From Streptomyces sp. NBRC 110035 (GTDB lineage Bacteria > Actinomycetota > Actinomycetes > Streptomycetales > Streptomycetaceae), in NCBI RefSeq assembly GCF_000829695.1, contig NZ_BBNN01000034.1, positions 1-64,000 on the forward strand: a stretch of DNA of 64,000 bases. Reading direction: 5' to 3'. How positions within the stretch are numbered: position 1 is the stretch's first letter; every line of letters begins with the position of its first letter. Below the pieces are notes generated by a model. The model saw only the letters and a program-made list of their open reading frames with translations, made no database searches and was not told where the DNA came from. Below are positions 3,000 to 63,060 of the stretch, piece after piece. The position numbers and the translations under genes are program-made.

Positions 3000-4192
3000 G
3001 GACGGCGTACCTCTCTTTCGAGGGCGTCGAGTCGGGCGGCGAGGGTGGTCAGGGCTGCGTCGTCGCCGGGTGGTGGGCCGAACAGGAGATCGTGCAGGGC
3101 CTGCCCGTCGCCGTGGAGGCGGGTGGACAGGGAGGGAAGCAGGGTCTCGGGCGTGTGGGCCCGGGACACGGGGACGCCTGCGAGAGGGGCGAGGCGCGTG
3201 CGGGTGGTGGAGCGCAGAGCGGTGGCCGCGCGGTCGCGGGCGTTCGCCTTGCGGTAGAGGCGGGCGCGGCCTTCGACGGTTTCGGAGGCGCGGATCGCGA
3301 CGGGGAGTCTTTCGGGGACGAGCGGGCCGAGCCGGCGCGCCCGCCACAGGGCGGCCAGGGCCGCCGCGACGAAGAGCTGCGCGGTGCCCCAGAGCCAGCC
3401 GGAGGGGAGCAGGTCGAAGAAGCTGCGTCGGCCCTCTTCCGAGGCGGCGGAGGCGTCGGCGAGGGAGGGGAGGTACCAGACGAGATGCGGGCGCGAGCCG
3501 AGGAGCTGGAGGGCGAGCGAGGCGTTGCCGTGCTCGTCGAGGCGGTCGTTGAGAAGGACGTCGGGGGCGCCGAGGAGGACGGTGTCGCCGCCCCCGGTGG
3601 CTGCCGGGATGCGCAGCAGGGTGGCCAGGCGCTCGCTGGGGTAGCACTCGTCTGCGTCGAGATGGGCGGTGGTGTAGCGCAGGCCGCCCGTGTCGGCGGA
3701 GCCCGCGCGGACGGCGGCGGGCAGGTCGCAGACCGGGTCGAGGGTCGAGCCGAAGCTGGTGGCCGGGTCGGCGATGACGCCCGGGGCCAGCCGGTCGACG
3801 GACGTGCTGCCGGCGGAGACCAGGACGGTGCGGCCGCCGGAGTCGGCGAACCCGGAGTGCAGCCGCGACTGCTGGCGGTGCGTCAGGAGGTCGGGGACGG
3901 CCACCAGGAGGGTCGTGTCGGGTTTCGCGGCGGCGGACGCCTCTTCCAGGGTGGTGACGACGCGCGTGTCCACGCCGCGGTCGGCGAGGAGTTCGGCGAC
4001 CGCGCGGCTGCCGTAGCGGTCGGCGGAGCGCGGGTCGAGTTCGCCGTGGCGGGCGTCGGAGCGGACCACGGCGATGACGACGGCTGCCACGGCCAGCAGC
4101 GCGAGTGCGAGGACGACGCCTCGCGCGCGGGTCCACACCTGGCGGGCGGTGGGCGAGGCCGAGGTGGGAGGGAGCGGGACCTCGGTCGTCAT
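2996..4192 (-). CDS. DUF4350 domain membrane protein
   Basis: A 398-residue protein with an N-terminal transmembrane segment (about residues 25-44). A DUF4350-like extracytoplasmic domain follows (SADRYGSRAVAELLADRGVDTRVV, with a GATase-like Rossmann fold in this family). A second membrane segment lies near FFDLLPSGWLWGTAQLFVAAALAALW, and then a cytoplasmic tail. The start ATG overlaps the stop of the DUF4129 gene (ATGA), and its own stop overlaps moxR in the same way. It is a standard member of actinobacterial MoxR/DUF58/DUF4129 clusters. The molecular function is not known. Confidence 0.87.
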   Translation of the reverse strand: MTTEVPLPPTSASPTARQVWTRARGVVLALALLAVAAVVIAVVRSDARHGELDPRSADRYGSRAVAELLADRGVDTRVVTTLEEASAAAKPDTTLLVAVPDLLTHRQQSRLHSGFADSGGRTVLVSAGSTSVDRLAPGVIADPATSFGSTLDPVCDLPAAVRAGSADTGGLRYTTAHLDADECYPSERLATLLRIPAATGGGDTVLLGAPDVLLNDRLDEHGNASLALQLLGSRPHLVWYLPSLADASAASEEGRRSFFDLLPSGWLWGTAQLFVAAALAALWRARRLGPLVPERLPVAIRASETVEGRARLYRKANARDRAATALRSTTRTRLAPLAGVPVSRAHTPETLLPSLSTRLHGDGQALHDLLFGPPPGDDAALTTLAARLDALEREVRRP

Positions 4193-4965
4193 CCGGCGGC
4201 TCCCTGACGGGCGTTGCCGCCCGTGTCGCTGTGGTTGTGGCTGCCGGCGGAGGCGCTCGCGAGCCGGGGCCTGGCCCGTTCCAGGTCGCGGTCGAGTTCG
4301 GTGAGCCGGCGGTACGCCTCCTCCGTCGCGGTGCGGCCGCCGTAGGTCACGTCGTCGAAGTTTTGGGCCGCGGTGTGCAGCCGGCCGGTGTGGGCGGGCA
4401 GGGCGCGGCCGGCCTCCGCGGCGGCCTCGTCGGCGGTGCGGCCGGGGCGGAGGTCGAGCAGGGCGCGTTCCTCCAGGGCGCGGACGAGGGCGCGCATGCG
4501 TTCCTGGACGGCCTGGTTCCAGTGGCCCTGGGCGGCGTGTGCCTCGGCGGCCGCGCGGTGTTCGGCGGAGCTGCGGGGGCGGTCGTCGAACAGGACGGGC
4601 GCGGAGGTCGGCCGGCGGCGTGGGGTGCCCAGGCGCCACCACAGGGCGCCCAGGACGGCAAGCACGGCGACGACGATGACGATCAGCCCGAGCGTGCCGC
4701 CGGGCGCGGCGGTGGAGGCGGCGTCGAACAGCTTGCCGACCCGTTCCCAGAAGGCGTCCAGGGCCCGCTGGAACCAGCTGGGGTCGTTCTCGTGGTACAT
4801 CTGCTTGGACAGTTCGCGCCGGGCCGCCTCCCGCGCGGGGTCGCGCGGGAGGGTGACGGGCGGTTCGCCGTCACCGCGCGGCAGTGCCAGGACGGCGCTG
4901 CCGGCGGCTTCGGGCAGTGTCGGCGCCGACGTGAGCACGGTGAGCACTCCCCCCGCGGTGTGCAC
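4189..4965 (-). CDS. DUF4129 domain membrane protein
   Basis: A 258-residue protein starting with GTG. It has an N-terminal hydrophobic stretch, an extracytoplasmic segment rich in charged residues, a central transmembrane helix (LIVIVVAVLAVLGALWW), and the cytoplasmic DUF4129 region (QAVQERMRALVRALEERALLDLRPGRTADE, then FDDVTYGGRTATEEAYRRLTELD). In this family the DUF4129 domain resembles transglutaminase-associated C-terminal regions. It begins four bases after the stop of the upstream membrane-protein gene and overlaps DUF4350 by four bases, so it belongs to the coupled MoxR cluster. The start codon choice is the least certain part. Confidence 0.85.
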   Translation of the reverse strand: MHTAGGVLTVLTSAPTLPEAAGSAVLALPRGDGEPPVTLPRDPAREAARRELSKQMYHENDPSWFQRALDAFWERVGKLFDAASTAAPGGTLGLIVIVVAVLAVLGALWWRLGTPRRRPTSAPVLFDDRPRSSAEHRAAAEAHAAQGHWNQAVQERMRALVRALEERALLDLRPGRTADEAAAEAGRALPAHTGRLHTAAQNFDDVTYGGRTATEEAYRRLTELDRDLERARPRLASASAGSHNHSDTGGNARQGAAG

Positions 4966-4969
4966 CCTG

Positions 4970-6289
4970 TCAGCTCCCCGGGACGGTGCCGGGCCCGTAG
5001 CCCTGGACGCCGGCGGCGCGGCCCAGTTCGAGGTCGAGGGCCTCGCGGCGGATGCGCTGGTCGATGTAGAGGAGCACGGTGACGCCGGCCGTGATCGGGT
5101 ACGTGATCATCGCGCCGATGACCGCGCCGATTCCGGTGATGATGAGGAACGTCCAGCCGATGTCGCCGCCGGCGCTGTTGAGGAAGCCGGTGACGCCGTC
5201 GCCGGTGAAGGCCGCGGCGATGAAGGTGAAGGGGATGATGATGATCGACGCGACGACGTTCGCGATGATCGTCGCGAGCAGCTGGATGCCGAAGATCCGC
5301 CACCAGGAGCCGCGCACCAGCTTCGCGGACCGGCTCAGCGCCTTGAGGACGCCCTGCTTCTCCAGCATCAGCGTGGGCGAGGCCAGCGAGTAGCGGATCA
5401 TCAGCCACAGGGCGACGAGGCCGGCGCCGATGATGCCCAGGACGGTGAGTGCCACCGCGCCTCCACCGCCGACCGCGGCGGTCATGACGAAGCCGGGTAC
5501 CGCGCCCACCGTGATGACGAGCACGGTGATCAGCAGCAGGCAGATCAGGCCGAACAGCCTCAGGATCTGGGGGCGGGCGTCGCGCCAGGCCTCGGCGGCG
5601 GTGACCGAGGTGCCGAGCACGGCGCGGCTGGTGACGGTGGTGAGCAGGGCGGTGGCGGCGACGGTGCCGATCAGGGTGACCATGAAGATCACCCCGCTGT
5701 TGAGCAGGGAGTCCCCCATGGCGGCGGTCAGTTCGTCGAGGGTCGCGCCCGGATCGCTGAGGGCCGCGGCGCTGGAGCTGTCCAGGAAGAACCCCTGGAC
5801 GAGGACTGCGACGACCTCGGTGAGGACGGCGACGGTCAGCGCGATGCCGAGGACGGTGCGCCAGTGGGTGCGCATGGTGGAGACCGCGCCGTCGAGGATC
5901 TCGCCCACCCCGAGCGGGCGGAGCGGGATCACACCGGGCTTGGCCGCGGGCGGGGGACCGCCCCAGCCTCCTCCCCAGGAGCCGTGACCGCCGTAGCCGC
6001 CAGGGCCTGCGTACCCGCCGCCGTGGCCACCGGGTCCGTGAGGGCCGGGCCCGGCCGGCGGCGGGGCGCCCCAGCCCGGCGGGGGCGCCTGGCCGGGGTC
6101 CGGGGTGCCGGGCCGGCCGGTGGGCGCGGACCACTGGCTCGGCGGCTGCTCCTTCGACCAGCCCGGACCCTGCGGGGCGGGCTGCTCGGGGTTCGGGCGG
6201 TCTGCGGGCGCGGCAGGTCCGGACGCATCCGGTCCCTGCCCTTCGGACGGGGCGGATCCGGGCGAAGCCCAGCCCGGAGTGTCGTTCAT
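4970..6289 (-). CDS. GPDPase-type membrane-domain protein
   Basis: A 439-residue protein. The first ~130 residues are a Gly/Pro-rich, disordered cytoplasmic region. The rest carries about six hydrophobic helices resembling the membrane domain found in glycerophosphoryl diester phosphodiesterase-like proteins of Streptomyces (start of domain PLGVGEILDGAVSTMRTHWRTVLG). No catalytic phosphodiesterase domain is visible, so enzymatic activity should not be assumed. An AAGGAGCGACG ribosome-binding site precedes the ATG. It is the first gene of the minus-strand cluster and is divergent from mtnA, with a 138-bp intergenic region. Confidence 0.85.
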   Translation of the reverse strand: MNDTPGWASPGSAPSEGQGPDASGPAAPADRPNPEQPAPQGPGWSKEQPPSQWSAPTGRPGTPDPGQAPPPGWGAPPPAGPGPHGPGGHGGGYAGPGGYGGHGSWGGGWGGPPPAAKPGVIPLRPLGVGEILDGAVSTMRTHWRTVLGIALTVAVLTEVVAVLVQGFFLDSSSAAALSDPGATLDELTAAMGDSLLNSGVIFMVTLIGTVAATALLTTVTSRAVLGTSVTAAEAWRDARPQILRLFGLICLLLITVLVITVGAVPGFVMTAAVGGGGAVALTVLGIIGAGLVALWLMIRYSLASPTLMLEKQGVLKALSRSAKLVRGSWWRIFGIQLLATIIANVVASIIIIPFTFIAAAFTGDGVTGFLNSAGGDIGWTFLIITGIGAVIGAMITYPITAGVTVLLYIDQRIRREALDLELGRAAGVQGYGPGTVPGS

Positions 6290-56201: not shown

Positions 56202-57170
56202 GTGCCCGCTCCCGCCCACCTCGACCCCCGGCTCCTGCGCGCCTTCGTCACCGTCGCCGAGGAGCTGCACTTCACCCGCGCCGCGATGCGCCTCTACGTC
56301 GCCCAGCAGGCGCTGAGCCGCGACGTGCGGCGGCTGGAACGGGAGCTGGGCAGCGAACTGTTCGTACGGACCACCCGGCAGGTGGCGCTCACCCCCGACG
56401 GTGAACGCCTGCTGCCGTACGCCCGCCGGGCCCTGGTCGCGCAGGACGATCTGCTCGCCGCCGCCGGACAGGCCCGGCCGCTGCTGGTGGACCTCAACTC
56501 CCCGGGACTGGCCACCGGGCGCCGCGTCCTGCACCGGGCCCGCGAACTCACCCCCGGTCACGAGCTGATGGCCCGCTACGAGAGCGGACTGACCTGGGCC
56601 GCGGGCGAGTTGACCGCGGGGCGGCTCGACGCGTCGTTCGGACGGTTCGCGGGGCTCCCCGAGGCGCTGAAGGCCGGGCTCGACCAGCAGCCCGTACGCT
56701 ACGAGCCGATGGCGGTGATCCTTCCCGAGGGCCACCGGCTGGCCGCCCTGGACCGGGTGCCGCTCGACGCGCTGGCCGGCGAGACCGTGTACGCCGGGGC
56801 GGGCAATCCGCGCACGCCCGAGTGGACCGACCTCGCGAGGCTGCTGTTCGAGGGGCGGGGCATCGACGTCGCGCCGCCCGCGCCCCTGGCCGTCGGTGAG
56901 GAGGAGTCCCAGCGGATCATGGCCCGTACCGGGCATCCGGTCCTCGCCGTGGTGGACTTCCCGCCGCTGCCTTCGATGGTGCTGCGCCCGCTGGTCGACC
57001 CCGTTCCGCTGTCCCCTGTGTCACTGGTGTGGCGAAAAGGGATGATTCACCCCGCTCTGGAGGGACTTCGTGGTGCGGCGGCCGAAATCGCCGCGGAAGA
57101 GGGCTGGTTGCGACGGCCCGCGAAGGGGTGGGTTTCGGACAGGGATCTCGATGTCATGAGTTCTCCGTGA
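56202..57170 (+). CDS. LysR-family transcriptional regulator
   Basis: A 322-residue LysR regulator. The N-terminal winged helix is LDPRLLRAFVTVAEELHFTRAAMRLYVAQQALSRDVRRLERELGSELFVRTTRQVALT, and the LysR_substrate domain follows. It has a GTG start. It is divergent from the MFS gene, with the usual arrangement for control of that neighbour. Its stop codon overlaps the first of the direct repeats ahead of matA. Confidence 0.92.
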   Translation: MPAPAHLDPRLLRAFVTVAEELHFTRAAMRLYVAQQALSRDVRRLERELGSELFVRTTRQVALTPDGERLLPYARRALVAQDDLLAAAGQARPLLVDLNSPGLATGRRVLHRARELTPGHELMARYESGLTWAAGELTAGRLDASFGRFAGLPEALKAGLDQQPVRYEPMAVILPEGHRLAALDRVPLDALAGETVYAGAGNPRTPEWTDLARLLFEGRGIDVAPPAPLAVGEEESQRIMARTGHPVLAVVDFPPLPSMVLRPLVDPVPLSPVSLVWRKGMIHPALEGLRGAAAEIAAEEGWLRRPAKGWVSDRDLDVMSSP

Positions 57171-57210
57171 TGTCTCATGGATGTCTCATGCCCGTCCGTG
57201 ATGTCTCACG
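57169..57210 (+). repeat. Three direct repeats ahead of matA
   Basis: GATGTCTCATG occurs at 57169-57179 and immediately again at 57180-57190; a third copy with one change (GATGTCTCACG) is at 57200-57210. A related GATGTCATGA is at 57150. The repeats lie 170-210 bases upstream of matA and may be binding sites for a regulator. Confidence 0.6.
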
Positions 57211-57265
57211 CCTGACACGAATCCACACCCGGGGAACGCGGGACCTCCGCGTACGCTACATTCGA

Positions 57266-57275
57266 TGCTCGAGCA
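57266..57275. promoter_or_regulatory. Palindrome in the matA promoter region
   Basis: TGCTCGAGCA is a perfect 10-bp palindrome about 100 bases before matA, next to a TACATT -10-like box. It may mark a second control site. Confidence 0.3.
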
Positions 57276-57376
57276 CAGTGTGATAAACGGGACGCTCGGA
57301 GCGGGCGGGGGACCATGTCCGGCGGCGCACGCCCAGGCCGCACGCGCACCCGGAACAGTCCCGTGGGGGAAAGAGC

Positions 57377-58852
57377 GTGCGCGTGGAGAAGTGGCGAGAA
57401 AACGCCCAACCTGAACGGTCCGAGGCCGAGGCCGAAGCCGCCCCGACCGGGGACGCCCGGCCCGCCCCCGGCGGTTCTGCCACCGACCGGGGAACGTGGT
57501 TCTCCCGGGACGTGCCCGGCCGCACCGCCCGTGCCGACGGGGCGGACGACGCCACCGCGGTGAAGGGAACCCCCGCCACACCCCACGCGGCCGGCCCGGA
57601 CGACCGGGCCGACCTGGAGCACCGGGTCGCCCCGGACGACGCGAAGGCCAGGACGACCACGATGAGCGCAACGCCCCCGCCGGGCGGCACGAGCAGGATG
57701 CCCGCACAGCGCGGGCCGGAGCGGGCCGCCCCGACGCCCCCGAGGGCCTTCGAGGACCCCGAAGAGACCAGGGCGCTGCGCATCAGGCCCCGTACTCCGG
57801 CCGAGGGGGGCGGTGGGTTCGACCGGACCGAGAGGTTCGAGAAGCCCGGGGCGCCCTTCTCCGCCCGCACCACCCCCGCACCCCCCTCCACCGGGGACAC
57901 CGGCTTCACCGCGCGCCTCTCCACCCAGGTCCCCGCGTCGCCCCGGCCGCCCCGTACTCCCCTGCGCGACCCCTGGCAGGAGGGGGCCGAGGCGACCGCG
58001 CCCGCCCCCGCGCCCACCAGGCCGGTGCCCGCAGTCGCGGAGACAGCCGCATCCGTAGTCGCGGACGCCGGTGCGACCGAGCACACCCACGACCCGCACG
58101 AGGTGACGGTCCAGCTCGACGCCGTGCAGTTCGGCGACGGCGTGCTGCGGGCAACGCCGGGCAGGCACCGCAGCGGCGCGGGCCGCGACGCCGCGGACGG
58201 ACCCGTGTTCGTCGACGAGTCGGGCCGCCGCAGCCGCCTCTACCGCCGGATCGGCCTGGCCGTCGGCCTGGCCTGCGCCGGGTACGCCGTTGTGATCGTC
58301 GCCACGCTGGTGTCCGGCAACTCCACCGCCCCCTGGATGCCCGTGCCCGGCCAGGGGAAGGAGCAGCCCGCCGGGAAGGTCGAGACCTCGCCGCGGCCCG
58401 CCGAGCCGGTCGCGTCGCCCAGTGCCGACCCGACCCCGGGCACCGGACCGACCGCGGGCGACCCCGGCGCCCCCGCCTCCCCCGACGCCGGCGTCCCCGC
58501 GGGCGGCGTGGCGACCGCCGGGGCCGAGTCCGGCGAGATCGCCGAGCCGTCGTCGACGCCGACCGGGACCGCCCCGGAAGCGGGCACCGGCACCGGCGGC
58601 TCCGCCACGACCGAGCCGGCCGATCCCCCGGCCGAGACGGAAACCGCCGACCCGCCGGCCTCGTCCGGCGGCACCGGCACCGATCCGGACACTCCCCCCG
58701 TGGAGGAGGGCCCCGGCGACGAGGAGCCCGCCGGCACCGACACGGTCGCCCAGGCGCCCCAGGCCCCGCCGGCCGTGGCCGCCGAGAACCCCGCCGCACA
58801 GCCCGCCCCGTCCCCCGCCCCCACCGCACCGTCCCCGGAGCACGCTCTCTGA
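57377..58852 (+). CDS. matA: MatA-like membrane protein of the mat locus
   Basis: A 491-residue, low-complexity protein. A Pro/Ala/Arg-rich cytoplasmic part (1-285) leads to one membrane helix (RRIGLAVGLACAGYAVVIVATLV, about 292-314), and a Pro/Thr/Ala/Glu-rich extracellular tail of ~175 residues follows. No enzymatic domain is visible. The position and coupling to matB match the mat locus of Streptomyces lividans and S. coelicolor, required for hyphal aggregation through poly-N-acetylglucosamine. It starts with GTG and has GGGGGAAAG upstream. Its stop overlaps the matB start by one base (TGATG). Confidence 0.75.
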   Translation: MRVEKWRENAQPERSEAEAEAAPTGDARPAPGGSATDRGTWFSRDVPGRTARADGADDATAVKGTPATPHAAGPDDRADLEHRVAPDDAKARTTTMSATPPPGGTSRMPAQRGPERAAPTPPRAFEDPEETRALRIRPRTPAEGGGGFDRTERFEKPGAPFSARTTPAPPSTGDTGFTARLSTQVPASPRPPRTPLRDPWQEGAEATAPAPAPTRPVPAVAETAASVVADAGATEHTHDPHEVTVQLDAVQFGDGVLRATPGRHRSGAGRDAADGPVFVDESGRRSRLYRRIGLAVGLACAGYAVVIVATLVSGNSTAPWMPVPGQGKEQPAGKVETSPRPAEPVASPSADPTPGTGPTAGDPGAPASPDAGVPAGGVATAGAESGEIAEPSSTPTGTAPEAGTGTGGSATTEPADPPAETETADPPASSGGTGTDPDTPPVEEGPGDEEPAGTDTVAQAPQAPPAVAAENPAAQPAPSPAPTAPSPEHAL

Positions 58853-61050
58853 TGGCCTCCCACTCCCGCCGCCCCGGGCCCGCGACCAGAGCCCGAGGCG
58901 GCTCCCGGCGTCGCCGTCTGCCCCTGCGCCTGCTGCTTCCGCTGCTCGTCCTCGTCGCCCTGTCGGCGATGCTGATGCTGCGCGGATACACGCACAGCGA
59001 GATCCTCGCCGACCACCGCGTCCAGCCGCCCGCCGCCACCGACCGGGTGCCGGAGAAGATCCTGGAGGGCGGCCCGGTCATCGACGCCCGGGAGGGGCGC
59101 GCCGAGACCCTGAGCGTGCCCGACCGCCGGCTGGTCCTCACCTTCGACGACGGACCGGACCCGACCTGGACGCCGCGCGTGCTGGACGTGCTGAAGAAGC
59201 ACGACGCGCACGCGGTCTTCTTCGTCACCGGCACCATGGCCTCCCGCCACCCGGACCTGGTCCAGCGCATGGTCGACGAGGGCCACGAGCTCGGCCTGCA
59301 CACGTTCAACCACCCCGACCTCTCCCTCCAGTCCAGGGAGCGCATCGACTGGGAGCTGTCGCAGAACCAGCTGGCGCTCACCGGCGCGGCCGGGGTGCGC
59401 ACCTCCCTCTTCCGCCCGCCGTACTCCTCCTTCTCCGCCGCCATGGACAACAAGTCCTGGCCGGTCACCGAGTACATCGGCAGCCTCGGGTACATCACCG
59501 TCGTCAACAACACCGACAGCGAGGACTGGCAGCGGCCCGGCGTCGACGAGATCATCCGCCGTGCCACGCCCGAGGACGGCGAGGGCGCCATCGTCCTGAT
59601 GCACGACTCCGGCGGCGACCGCAGCCAGACCGTCGCGGCGCTGGACCGGTTCCTGCCCGACCTGAAGGAGCGGGGCTACGAGTTCGCCAACCTCACCGAG
59701 GCCCTGGACGCGCCCGGCGCGATGACTCCGGTGACCGGCGCCGAGCTGTGGAAGGGCAAGGCGTGGATCTTCCTGGTCCAGGCCTCCGAGAAGATCACCG
59801 GCGGCCTGGTGGTGGGCCTGGCGGTCATCGGCACCCTGGTCATCGCCCGCTTCGTGCTGATGCTCCTGCTCTCCGGCATCCACGCCCGCCGGGTCCGCCG
59901 CAAGGGCTTCCGCTGGGGCCCGCCGGTCACCGAACCGGTGACGGTGCTGGTCCCGGCCTACAACGAGGCCAAGTGCATCGAGAACACCGTCCGTTCCCTG
60001 ATGGACAGCGACCACCCGGTCGAGGTCCTGGTCGTCGACGACGGTTCCAGCGACGGCACGGCCCGCATCGTCGAGGCCATGGGCCTGCCCAACGTCCGGG
60101 TGATCCGCCAGCTCAACGCGGGCAAACCGGCCGCCCTCAACCGGGGCCTGGCCAACGCCCGGTACGACATCGTCGTGATGATGGACGGCGACACGGTCTT
60201 CGAGCCGTCCACCGTCCGCGAACTCGTCCAGCCCTTCGGCGACCCGGGGGTGGGAGCCGTGGCGGGCAACGCGAAGGTCGGCAACAAGGACAGCCTCATC
60301 GGCGCCTGGCAGCACATCGAGTACGTGATGGGCTTCAACCTGGACCGCCGCATGTACGACGTCCTCGGCTGCATGCCGACGATCCCGGGCGCCGTCGGCG
60401 CCTTCCGCCGCTCGGCACTGGTCCCGATCGGCGGCATGAGCGACGACACGCTCGCCGAGGACACCGACGTCACCATGGCGCTGCACCGCGCCGGCTGGCG
60501 CGTGGTCTACGCCGAGAACGCCCGCGCCTGGACCGAGGCCCCGGAGACGGTCCAGCAGCTGTGGTCCCAGCGCTACCGCTGGTCCTACGGCACCATGCAG
60601 GCCATCTGGAAGCACCGCCGCGCCGTGATCGACAAGGGGCCCTCGGGCCGCTTCGGCCGTGTGGGCCTGCCCTTCGTCTCCCTGTTCATGATCGTGGCCC
60701 CGCTGCTGGCCCCCCTGATCGACGTCTTCCTGCTCTACGGCCTCGTCTTCGGCCCGACCGAGAAGACGATCACGGCGTGGCTGGGGGTCCTGGCCGTCCA
60801 GGCGGTCTGCGCGGCCTTCGCCTTCCGGCTCGACCGCGAACGCATGACCCACCTGATCTCGCTGCCGCTGCAGCAGCTCCTCTACCGCCAGCTCATGTAC
60901 GTCGTGCTGCTCCAGTCCTGGATCACCGCGCTCACCGGCGGCCGCCTGCGCTGGCAGAAGCTGCGGCGCACCGGCGTCGTCGAGGCGCCCGGCGGCTCGG
61001 TGCCGCGCCAGAACGCGCGGACCGACGACGATCGGAGGCCCGTGGCATGA
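58852..61050 (+). CDS. matB: MatB bifunctional polysaccharide deacetylase / glycosyltransferase
   Basis: A 732-residue membrane enzyme. An N-terminal TM helix (about 23-42) is followed by an extracellular NodB deacetylase domain (about 92-275; metal and catalytic residues in TFDDGPD, HTFNHPDLS, and RPPYSSF), and a second TM helix near 310-335. A cytoplasmic GT2 synthase domain follows (VPAYNEAKCIENTVRSL, VVDDGSSDGT, MMDGDTVF, EDTDVTMAL and QRYRWSYG), with C-terminal helices. It thus fuses functions that are separate in PgaB and PgaC, and makes and modifies a beta-1,6-GlcNAc-type polymer. The start overlaps matA (TGATG). Confidence 0.85.
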   Translation: MASHSRRPGPATRARGGSRRRRLPLRLLLPLLVLVALSAMLMLRGYTHSEILADHRVQPPAATDRVPEKILEGGPVIDAREGRAETLSVPDRRLVLTFDDGPDPTWTPRVLDVLKKHDAHAVFFVTGTMASRHPDLVQRMVDEGHELGLHTFNHPDLSLQSRERIDWELSQNQLALTGAAGVRTSLFRPPYSSFSAAMDNKSWPVTEYIGSLGYITVVNNTDSEDWQRPGVDEIIRRATPEDGEGAIVLMHDSGGDRSQTVAALDRFLPDLKERGYEFANLTEALDAPGAMTPVTGAELWKGKAWIFLVQASEKITGGLVVGLAVIGTLVIARFVLMLLLSGIHARRVRRKGFRWGPPVTEPVTVLVPAYNEAKCIENTVRSLMDSDHPVEVLVVDDGSSDGTARIVEAMGLPNVRVIRQLNAGKPAALNRGLANARYDIVVMMDGDTVFEPSTVRELVQPFGDPGVGAVAGNAKVGNKDSLIGAWQHIEYVMGFNLDRRMYDVLGCMPTIPGAVGAFRRSALVPIGGMSDDTLAEDTDVTMALHRAGWRVVYAENARAWTEAPETVQQLWSQRYRWSYGTMQAIWKHRRAVIDKGPSGRFGRVGLPFVSLFMIVAPLLAPLIDVFLLYGLVFGPTEKTITAWLGVLAVQAVCAAFAFRLDRERMTHLISLPLQQLLYRQLMYVVLLQSWITALTGGRLRWQKLRRTGVVEAPGGSVPRQNARTDDDRRPVA

Positions 61051-62375
61051 CCCACGGATACACGACCGGTACGGGCCCGGTGCCGGAGCCGGCCGGCCCG
61101 TACGGAACCGGGCGCACGGGAGACGCGCACGGCGTCCCGGAAACGCCGCTCGCGGTCCCGCGGCAGCGCACGACCGCGTCCGCGCCCGTACCGGACCCCG
61201 ACGCCCCGGCGGCCCCCGCGAAGCCCGGCCGTGACCGGTATCTCGACCTGCTGCGCTCCCTCGCCCTGGTCCGCGTGGTCGTCTACCACCTGTTCGGCTG
61301 GGCCTGGCTGACGGTGCTGTTCCCGTCGATGGGCGTGATGTTCGCGCTGGCGGGTTCGCTGATGGCGCGTTCGCTGAAGCGTCCGGCGGGGAGCGTGATC
61401 CGCAGCCGGGTCCGCCGTCTCCTGCCGCCCATGTGGGCGTTCGCCGTGGTCGTGCTGGCGATGATGTTCGCGAACGGCTGGAACCCGGCGAAGGACGACG
61501 GTTCCTGGGGTCTGATCGGGCTGTTCAACTACATCGTCCCGATCGGTGCTCCGCCCTATCCCTGGGAGCTCGGCTCCCCGTCGGGCCTGCTGGGCGACAC
61601 CTGGGCGGTGCAGGCCGCGGGCCCGCTGTGGTACCTGCGCGCCTACCTGTGGTTCGTGCTCGCCTCGCCGCTGCTGCTGTGGGCGTTCCGCCGGGCCCCC
61701 TGGCCGACCCTGCTCGCACCGCTGGCCCTGACGGCGGTCGTCGGCACCGGCCTGGTGACCATCCCCGGTGAAACGGGCAACGCGGTCACCGACTTCGCGG
61801 TCTACGGCGGCTGCTGGGTGCTGGGCTTCGCCCACCACGAAGGCATGCTGCAGCGGATCCCGCGGTACGTCTCGGTCTCCTGCGCGTCGCTGGTGATGGC
61901 CTTCGGCCTGTGGTGGGCGTCGAACCACCTGGGCCCCGACGGCTGGGACCTCAACGACATCCCGCTGGCCCAGGCGGCCTGGTCGTTCGGGTTCGTCGTG
62001 ATCCTGCTCCAGTACTCCCCGTCGTGGCGGGAACTCCCGGGCCGCCTGGCGCAGTGGGACAAGCTGGTGACCCTCTCCAACAACCGGGCGGTCACCATCT
62101 ACCTGTGGCACAACATGCTGATCATGGCGACCGTCCCGATCATCGACCTGCTGTACCGGCTCCCGTTCCTGCAGAGCGAGCGCGGGGCGGATGCCATCAC
62201 CAGCACGTACACCCTCTGGATGTTCGCCCTGATCTGGCCGCTCATCGGCCTGACGGTCCTCGCGGTCGGCTGGGTCGAGGACCTCGCGGCGAAGCGAAGG
62301 CCCCGCCTGTGGCCGAACGGCGCGAAGCGCTCCGCCGGAAAGGGGCCCGGCCGCCGCGCAGCCCGCCGGGGCTGA
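61047..62375 (+). CDS. Membrane acyltransferase of the mat operon
   Basis: A 442-residue acyltransferase-3 family protein with about ten membrane helices. The motif with the essential histidine and arginine lies near residues 65-80 (DRYLDLLRSLALVRVVVYHLFGW). It overlaps matB by four bases (ATGA), so it belongs to the same operon. In staphylococci, IcaC of the same family O-succinylates poly-N-acetylglucosamine. By analogy this protein may modify or export the Mat polymer, but this is inferred. Confidence 0.85.
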   Translation: MTHGYTTGTGPVPEPAGPYGTGRTGDAHGVPETPLAVPRQRTTASAPVPDPDAPAAPAKPGRDRYLDLLRSLALVRVVVYHLFGWAWLTVLFPSMGVMFALAGSLMARSLKRPAGSVIRSRVRRLLPPMWAFAVVVLAMMFANGWNPAKDDGSWGLIGLFNYIVPIGAPPYPWELGSPSGLLGDTWAVQAAGPLWYLRAYLWFVLASPLLLWAFRRAPWPTLLAPLALTAVVGTGLVTIPGETGNAVTDFAVYGGCWVLGFAHHEGMLQRIPRYVSVSCASLVMAFGLWWASNHLGPDGWDLNDIPLAQAAWSFGFVVILLQYSPSWRELPGRLAQWDKLVTLSNNRAVTIYLWHNMLIMATVPIIDLLYRLPFLQSERGADAITSTYTLWMFALIWPLIGLTVLAVGWVEDLAAKRRPRLWPNGAKRSAGKGPGRRAARRG

Positions 62376-62541
62376 CGACGACCCTCTTCCCGGGACTCCG
62401 CCTTCTTCGGCGACAGCGTCGGCGAGGGCGCCGGGCCTGCGGTCCACGTCGGCGCAGGTCTCGTCGAAGGGGTGCCGGCAACCCGTTACGTGTTCCGGCC
62501 GGGCCTGACGGCCCGGGTGGAAACAGAGATGTCCGCGGTGG
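62376..62541. other. Intergenic region after the mat operon
   Basis: A GC-rich gap between convergent genes. No gene or clear terminator is seen. Confidence 0.5.
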
Positions 62542-62781
62542 TCAGCCCGCGTCGGGCAGCGCCTCCGGGAAACCCCGCTCACCCGCCTTCCGCCGTGCCC
62601 GCTCCGTGTTGAACCGCCGGACCGTCTCCAGCCACCGCCACGGACGGATCTCGTCGAGGGCCAGGCCGGGACAGGCGAGCCGGTGGGGGACGCGGCAGGT
62701 GGCGCCGGGCAGGGGTTCGTCCAGGCCGCCGTTCCAGGCGGTGCCGTCGGTGTCGAGGTGCCAGCGGTGTCCGCCGGGCAC
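62542..62781 (-). CDS. Small hypothetical protein or remnant
   Basis: A possible 79-residue protein starting with GTG (PGGHRWHLDTDGTAWNGGLDEPLPGATCRVPHRLACPG). The composition is protein-like, with good third-position GC, two cysteines and many Trp/His residues. I do not recognise a domain. The start has no convincing ribosome site, and the frame remains open upstream to a stop at about 62869, so this may be the end of a larger broken gene. Confidence 0.4.
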   Translation of the reverse strand: MPGGHRWHLDTDGTAWNGGLDEPLPGATCRVPHRLACPGLALDEIRPWRWLETVRRFNTERARRKAGERGFPEALPDAG

Positions 62782-62868
62782 GAGAGAACCCCATGAGTGC
62801 CGACAGAGCCACTCGATGAATTGACCGCGGCTGCGCTCGCGTTGGCGTGCCGGTCCGGGAGCTCGGGT

Positions 62869-63060
62869 TCAGCTCGCGGTCGAGTCCCTGGTCAGCGCGT
62901 CCATGAAGAGGTCGACGAGCGGGCGGGCTTGCTCTTTGGTTCCGTGCTGCACGGAATAGGCGATGCCACCCATGAGGAGTAGGACATCGTCCGGGGCGGC
63001 GTCCGTTCGCAGGCTTCCGTCTCGGGCGCCGGCCGCGAGGAGGGTGGCGACAGCGTCGGT
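62869..63060 (-). pseudogene. C-terminal remnant of a TetR-family regulator
   Basis: Read on the minus strand, this piece ends LRTDAAPDDVLLLMGGIAYSVQHGTKEQARPLVDLFMDALTRDSTAS, a typical C-terminal helical region of TetR regulators (TetR_C_33 type). No helix-turn-helix can be found upstream in any frame; the sequence breaks down beyond ~63060 (frame changes and repeats such as GATGAGCGATGAGCG near 63200). It is best read as a truncated, non-functional copy. Confidence 0.6.

Follow-up and report, generated by a model that had tools for sequence, protein, structure and literature searches.

matC, a coupled third gene of the Streptomyces mat locus, encodes a predicted membrane acyltransferase and appears to be exchanged between two types

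The DNA analysed here (the window) is a stretch of 64,000 nucleotides of Streptomyces sp. NBRC 110035, contig NZ_BBNN01000034.1, positions 1 to 64,000. Near its end lies the mat locus, in which matA and matB are followed by a third gene encoding a membrane protein of the acyltransferase-3 (AT3) family. We call this gene matC, a name coined here and not found as a gene name in the accessible open-licence PubMed Central (PMC) literature on Streptomyces matAB; papers are cited below by PMC number. The elements of the locus are the following.

57377-58852, + strand: matA, 491-residue protein, GTG start
58850-58854, + strand: TGATG stop/start overlap of matA and matB
58852-61050, + strand: matB, poly-N-acetylglucosamine (PNAG) synthase/deacetylase
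60976-61047, + strand: matB codons 709-732, proposed left edge of exchange
61034-61038, + strand: GGAGG Shine-Dalgarno core of matC, within matB
61047-61050, + strand: ATGA start/stop overlap of matB and matC, offset -1
61047-62375, + strand: matC, 442-residue AT3 membrane protein, type I

The stop codon of matA (TGA, 58850-58852) and the ATG of matB (58852-58854) have one base in common, and the ATG of matC (61047-61049) overlaps the stop codon of matB (TGA, 61048-61050), with eight bases between the end of the GGAGG core and the matC start. Both junctions had been pointed out in a previous sequence-only reading of this DNA and are present as described.

The conservation of this arrangement was examined in 150 Streptomyces genomes, 145 of which have some MatB match at 1e-20. 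The main set of mat loci (L001-L079) comprises the 79 full-length MatB matches with an identity of at least 70%, and a MatC match is present in 76 of them. L080 (same place as L004), L094 (frame not resolved) and L079 (matC cut by the contig end) were dropped before the counts; L007, in which the frame is broken, enters the overlap count but not the trees, and L071 was retained despite its missing matC start. Among the 75 mat loci with a readable matC, the matB-matC offset is -1 (ATGA or GTGA) in 72, +2 (TGATG) in two and neither of these in one. A second set of 80 named loci, fetched by a MatC profile as the best of 590 confirmed ones and with two of them cut at contig ends, shows the -1 offset in 77 of the 78 loci holding matB; by identity (66-89%), the MatC proteins of these best 80 loci are all of the window's type, type I. 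Of 73 mat loci examined for it, 70 have a Shine-Dalgarno-like core in front of matC, as compared with 9.7% of random 14-mers from matB. A chance overlap of matB and matC was considered and is rejected by the offset counts of the two sets. Since the -1 offset is conserved across the Streptomyces mat loci, the coupling of the third gene to matB, as claimed previously, goes beyond chance. The matA-matB junction is looser: over 78 loci the offset is -1 or +2 in 32, +3 in 15 and other or not found in 25, and six have no usable matA match.

The linkage is equally visible from the side of MatC. A MatC search of the 150 genomes (E ≤ 1e-40) gave 128 matches, of which 118 sit directly behind a listed MatB match and six more adjoin MatB (L247, L251, L252, L253, L254 and L255). 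The others are the second piece of a broken gene in genome G027, L249 at a contig edge, the lone fragment L250, and L248. L248 (genome G077) holds matA together with a MatC match covering residues 108-435, and no match to matB turned up over the 7 kb that were fetched, owing to either a loss of matB or an assembly gap. In G027 (L007/L136) the matC frame is broken into two-piece matches within an otherwise intact mat locus, by sequencing error or decay. Several Streptomyces genomes contain more than one mat-like locus, and among the paralogous MatB loci (L081-L120) a MatC match is found in 20 of 40, namely L081-L087, L089-L096, L115 and L117-L120. In other genera of the family, all nine fetched MatB loci (L146-L148, L150-L155) have a MatC relative, and a phylum-wide MatC search at E ≤ 1e-40 yielded matches in 6 of 198 genomes, all of the same genus.

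MatA has no Pfam or NCBIfam match. It shows, by reading, a single hydrophobic segment at about residues 292-312 and a Pro/Thr-rich C-terminal part; matches in relatives are mostly confined to residues 190-490, and a matA match is present in 72 of the 79 mat loci. MatB combines an N-terminal polysaccharide deacetylase domain (PF01522, 1.8e-37, residues 90-198) with a C-terminal family-2 glycosyltransferase domain (PF13641, 3.1e-35, residues 362-580). Its best NCBIfam model is PgaC_IcaA (TIGR03937), at 192.5 bits against a curated cut-off of 422.3. This equivalog cut-off is not reached, and the PNAG function of MatB is taken from PMC5972031, in which MatA and MatB are required for a polymer bound by the monoclonal antibody F598 and removed by dispersin B, and in which MatB is viewed as IcaA and IcaB within one protein.

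MatC matches PF01757 with an E-value of 9.5e-27 and a score of 94.3 bits, the gathering cut-off being 31, which together with the AT3 motifs bears out the earlier assignment of the third gene to this family. According to the signatures described for AT3 proteins and the transmembrane acyltransferase (TmAT) superfamily (PMC9833829, PMC12423673), helix 1 carries DxxR-x10-H, helix 2 FxxxxxL, helix 3 RxxR and helix 9 SxxxY. The helix 1 motif corresponds to D67, R70 and H81 of MatC and is found in 92 of 93 MatC-family sequences, the exception being L071, which lacks the start. All 93 keep R121 and R124 of RxxR, F99 and L105, which were aligned by eye to the published FxxxxxL motif, and Y352 and H355. 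The residues D67, R70, H81, R121, R124 and Y352 match those named in PMC12423673 and PMC9833829.

An AlphaFold2 model of MatC, built with 45 sequences (mean pLDDT 65, pTM 0.62), has a low-confidence tail at residues 1-60 and ten long helices between residues 65 and 414. In a VIA-align 2 comparison over the Foldseek list, human HGSNAT ranks top (Z 13.9, root-mean-square deviation 5.0, 284 aligned residues, covering residues 62-423 of the model), GWT1 is second (Z 11.0) and the next row is at 5.6, although helical models often reach a Z of 14 without known kinship. Both HGSNAT and GWT1 are transmembrane acyltransferases of the TmAT superfamily as defined in PMC12423673. The predicted fold of MatC thus resembles the ten-helix TmAT fold, the family match and the kept residues weighing more than the model. 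Searches of solved structures by sequence, with MatC alone and with a MatC profile, returned no relative, and no SGNH domain was detected in MatC by Pfam. A degenerate or dead enzyme is disfavoured by the kept AT3 residues. Because of the PF01757 match, the kept motifs and the TmAT-like model, MatC appears equipped as an acyl-CoA-dependent acyltransferase.

At the main mat locus, MatC falls into two clades, type I with 50 loci and type II with 24, which have SH-aLRT (approximate likelihood ratio test) supports of 95 (with the window's MatC included) and 99, respectively. The two types are about 50% identical to each other. Type II proteins are 49-53% identical to the MatC of the window, whereas their partner MatB proteins are 75-89% identical to the window's MatB. 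On the MatB tree the MatC type changes at least 9 times, and at least 6 of the changes are forced by supported branches. The conflict between the two trees shows in both directions: type II as one clade is rejected on the MatB data (approximately unbiased test, p-AU 3.2e-8), and the MatB clade of L059, L061, L062 and L064 is rejected on the MatC data (p-AU 1.75e-4), both values being optimistic because the groups were named after the trees had been seen. With supports of 91 and 92, type II groups with MatC from a paralogous class of mat loci, which is a possible source of it.

The exchange was further followed at the DNA level in 15 locus pairs, 9 of them of mixed type, picked after the trees had been seen, by comparing matB, the last 900 bases of matC and the next 600 bases. 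In three of the mixed pairs like DNA is found on both sides of a differing matC, the identities in the three segments being 87/60/84% for L044 (I) vs L049 (II), 93/62/80% for L059 (I) vs L061 (II) and 90/62/79% for L004 (I) vs L009 (II). The same-type control L044 vs L046 gives 85/84/86%. A major facilitator superfamily (MFS) transporter gene, NarK-like in our own reading, lies behind matC in L044 and L061 (PF07690 for L061). In L076 an MFS transporter gene stands directly behind matB with matC absent, which provides an empty site for comparison.

At the other side, MatB residues 709-732 track the MatC type, with a mean identity of 0.506 within and 0.383 between types, although same-type MatB pairs are also closer relatives on average. 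The 24 residues before position 709 are 99% and 98% identical in the same comparison, and other stretches of MatB differ by 0.004-0.042. This pattern fits an exchange whose left edge lies within the 3' end of matB, next to an anchor that is conserved. The MatB columns that best track type are 709, 732 and 728; as a signal of co-evolution with type, the best column is not significant in a sign test (median p 0.25). The -1 offset is found with both types, in 49 of 50 type I and 22 of 24 type II loci. From these comparisons, matC appears to have been repeatedly exchanged between two types at its coupled position, and we infer that recombination brought the MatB and MatC trees into conflict. The evidence for this repeated exchange of acyltransferase type is what the present analysis adds, the third gene and its basic meaning being already published in the mat papers of 2015 and 2018. 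No description of an exchange of MatC type was found in the accessible open-licence PMC literature.

Taken together, the overlaps suggest that matA, matB and matC may be read as a single translationally coupled unit. MatB would polymerize N-acetylglucosamine (GlcNAc) in the cytoplasm, extrude the chain and partly deacetylate it outside. MatC, as a putative ten-helix acyl-CoA-dependent transmembrane acyltransferase of the AT3/TmAT fold, would load acyl-CoA at the cytosolic side and transfer an acyl group, acetyl or succinyl, to the polymer leaving MatB; that the acceptor is PNAG we infer from the gene linkage. The coupling of matC to matB would keep synthase and decorator in step, and the matC position would be an exchangeable slot that holds one of two diverged MatC types, or none, behind similar matB genes. 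We consider it likely that the three genes form such a coupled unit, with MatC acylating PNAG and the matC slot exchangeable.

A number of results weigh against this proposal. The SxxxY motif is replaced by A348-xxx-Y352, with Ala in all 93 MatC sequences; we do not treat this motif as defining, because its Ser is not conserved across the TmAT superfamily and is dispensable in OatA (PMC12423673). The mean pLDDT of the model is only 65, its Z scores carry the limit given above, and a Foldseek search with it found no Protein Data Bank match at E ≤ 0.001. A report of an acyl group on Streptomyces PNAG was not found in the accessible open-licence PMC literature; the assays of PMC5972031 are antibody binding, dispersin B and periodate, and the terms "NMR", "succin" and "O-acetyl" do not occur in its available text. 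MatC matches are missing from three of the 79 main loci (L072, L073 and L076) and from 20 of the 40 paralogous ones, which are mainly distant (L099-L114, MatB 46-57% identical) and also include L088, L097, L098 and L116 (MatB 56-62% identical), so that MatB is not always in need of MatC. Loci of one type tend to stand together on the MatB tree, the 9 changes comparing with a shuffled mean of 21.1, and the exchange is therefore occasional. Five of the nine mixed pairs (L005 vs L009, L001 vs L009, L001 vs L012, L015 vs L027 and L013 vs L017) are without like DNA behind matC, and one (L020 vs L040) is too short. Since the same-type pairs L005 vs L004 and, over the first 600 bases, L013 vs L014 also lack downstream likeness, we regard these five as neutral on exchange. 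Finally, the residues that distinguish the MatC types do not gather in the predicted outward loops (4 of 16).

We have also considered that MatC might be an acyltransferase whose acceptor is an envelope glycan other than PNAG, or else a lipid carrier or MatA, its coupling to matB serving expression only. AT3 proteins do serve many acceptors (PMC9558356), and the lack of a located report of acylated Streptomyces PNAG suits this possibility as well. However, MatB adjoins 124 of the 128 MatC matches, the 125th being a piece of one such gene, and the pairing recurs in half of the 40 paralogous loci and in all nine loci fetched from other genera of the family, which makes a separate acceptor unlikely. 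A non-enzymatic role as channel or partner in PNAG export was the first proposal for IcaC, the AT3 protein of the staphylococcal ica operon (PMC9558356), and it is compatible with the complementation of 2018 by a plasmid carrying matAB only, because the hosts, as the available text of PMC5972031 reads, apparently keep SCO2961, the Streptomyces gene corresponding to matC. Against it stand the retained catalytic and acyl-CoA residues, the acyltransferase-like model and the existence of mat loci that have no matC. Synthases of the MatB kind, moreover, extrude their own product. Acylation is accordingly favoured over export, given the conserved motifs of the predicted acyl-CoA site and the likeness of the model to transmembrane acyltransferases, and we hold the export role to be very unlikely.

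A different account of the two MatC types would be that they are relics of an old tandem duplication, differentially lost in each lineage. Such a scenario also explains the interleaving of the types on the MatB tree, and the polarity of the types is not settled by the trees: basal MatB rows carry type I, and two other-genus loci carry a MatC from the type II side. Yet no genome with both types occurs among the MatC matches of the 150 genomes at E ≤ 1e-40, and in the same search the 24 type II genomes show no further MatC match at type I identity. In addition, both types fit the same overlap, and MatB residues 709-732 follow the type more than other stretches do. We judge differential loss to be rather unlikely and retain exchange at the coupled position as the preferred explanation.

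The third gene of the mat locus has been noted before. In Streptomyces the order SCO2963-SCO2962-SCO2961 is the same as here, and the coupling of matA and matB is described (PMC4391728, PMC5972031). The sequence-only reading stated that the system is known mainly as two genes, which is partly right; the third gene was not overlooked, SCO2961 being named an acetyltransferase or IcaC-like counterpart by van Dissel in 2015 and 2018, with a single occurrence in each paper. The available texts of these two papers neither count its overlaps nor check its residues, and they do not mention an exchange of its type; functional data on SCO2961 were not found in the accessible open-licence PMC literature. 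In the strain table of PMC9764417 the matAB mutant is printed as a sco2961-2962 deletion, and the methods say sco2963-sco2962; from the table, this mutant could be mistaken for a matC deletion.

Like mat, the staphylococcal icaADBC operon brings together a PNAG-type synthase, a deacetylase and an AT3 protein, but synthase and deacetylase are fused in MatB, and no IcaD homologue is noted for mat in PMC4391728. MatC and two plasmid-encoded IcaC proteins, of Staphylococcus equorum and Staphylococcus hominis, share PF01757, and MatC has no NCBIfam match. Membership of the same family, as previously claimed, is correct at this level; closer kinship with these two proteins was not detected (blastp E 0.92; hhalign probability 0.2, the IcaC side consisting of just two rows). 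Because of this lack of detectable similarity we withhold the term orthologue, orthology being unproven, and keep to the analogy that MatC may work like IcaC. The succinylation of PNAG by IcaC, previously cited as fact, stands as a suggestion, the function of IcaC being called an outstanding problem in PMC9558356; acylation by IcaC alongside IcaAD, as the chain emerges, is raised in PMC9833829. With the TmAT proteins OafB, OatA, HGSNAT and GWT1, MatC shares the ten-helix model, DxxR, x10-H, RxxR and the Tyr of transmembrane helix 9; it differs from them in the Ala in place of the helix 9 Ser, the absence of an SGNH domain and the coupling to a PNAG synthase gene. The serotype-converting AT3 genes of Shigella are phage- or island-borne additions. 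The matC change, unlike Oac/OacB (named in PMC12423673), would be a replacement inside a chromosomal operon with the overlap kept; if the types differ in product, it would be alike in that a replaceable membrane acyltransferase alters a surface glycan from one related strain to another. A survey of PNAG operons (PMC7112194) describes deacetylase-glycosyltransferase fusions, in Gram-negative clades, and ica-type operons without icaC; the word "Streptomyces" is absent from its available text.

Pellet formation in industrial Streptomyces is governed by the mat PNAG, as is adhesion to hydrophilic surfaces. If the coupled enzyme decorates this polymer and is swapped between lineages, polymer chemistry would be an evolvable and engineerable trait. 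It is conceivable, though we advance it only tentatively, that matC acts as a specificity cassette, so that related Streptomyces make adhesion polymers differing in acyl group, position or extent; this would alter kin recognition, hydrolase resistance or attachment. One MatC type might N-acylate the amines exposed by MatB, since the deacetylase of MatB frees amines and HGSNAT N-acetylates glucosamine. Harmless Streptomyces, with natural loci of both types and others that lack matC, would lend themselves to a direct test of whether IcaC acts as exporter or succinyltransferase.

Upstream of matA lies one further gene:

56202-57170, + strand: LysR-type regulator gene (PF00126, 2.1e-22; PF03466, 8.9e-11)

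From its position it is a candidate mat regulator. The regulator SCO2964 is of the IclR family according to PMC4391728, in contrast to the LysR type found here by Pfam, the correspondence of the two genes being assumed from position. A consensus scan, which is weak for Streptomyces, gave no promoter-like sites and no + strand terminator-like sites in 57100-62900. Elsewhere in the same genome (L256, C67:229000-236000), a deacetylase-like gene on the - strand (1877-2869, MatB match of 34%) and an AT3 gene on the + strand (3856-5136) are arranged divergently, about 1 kb apart.

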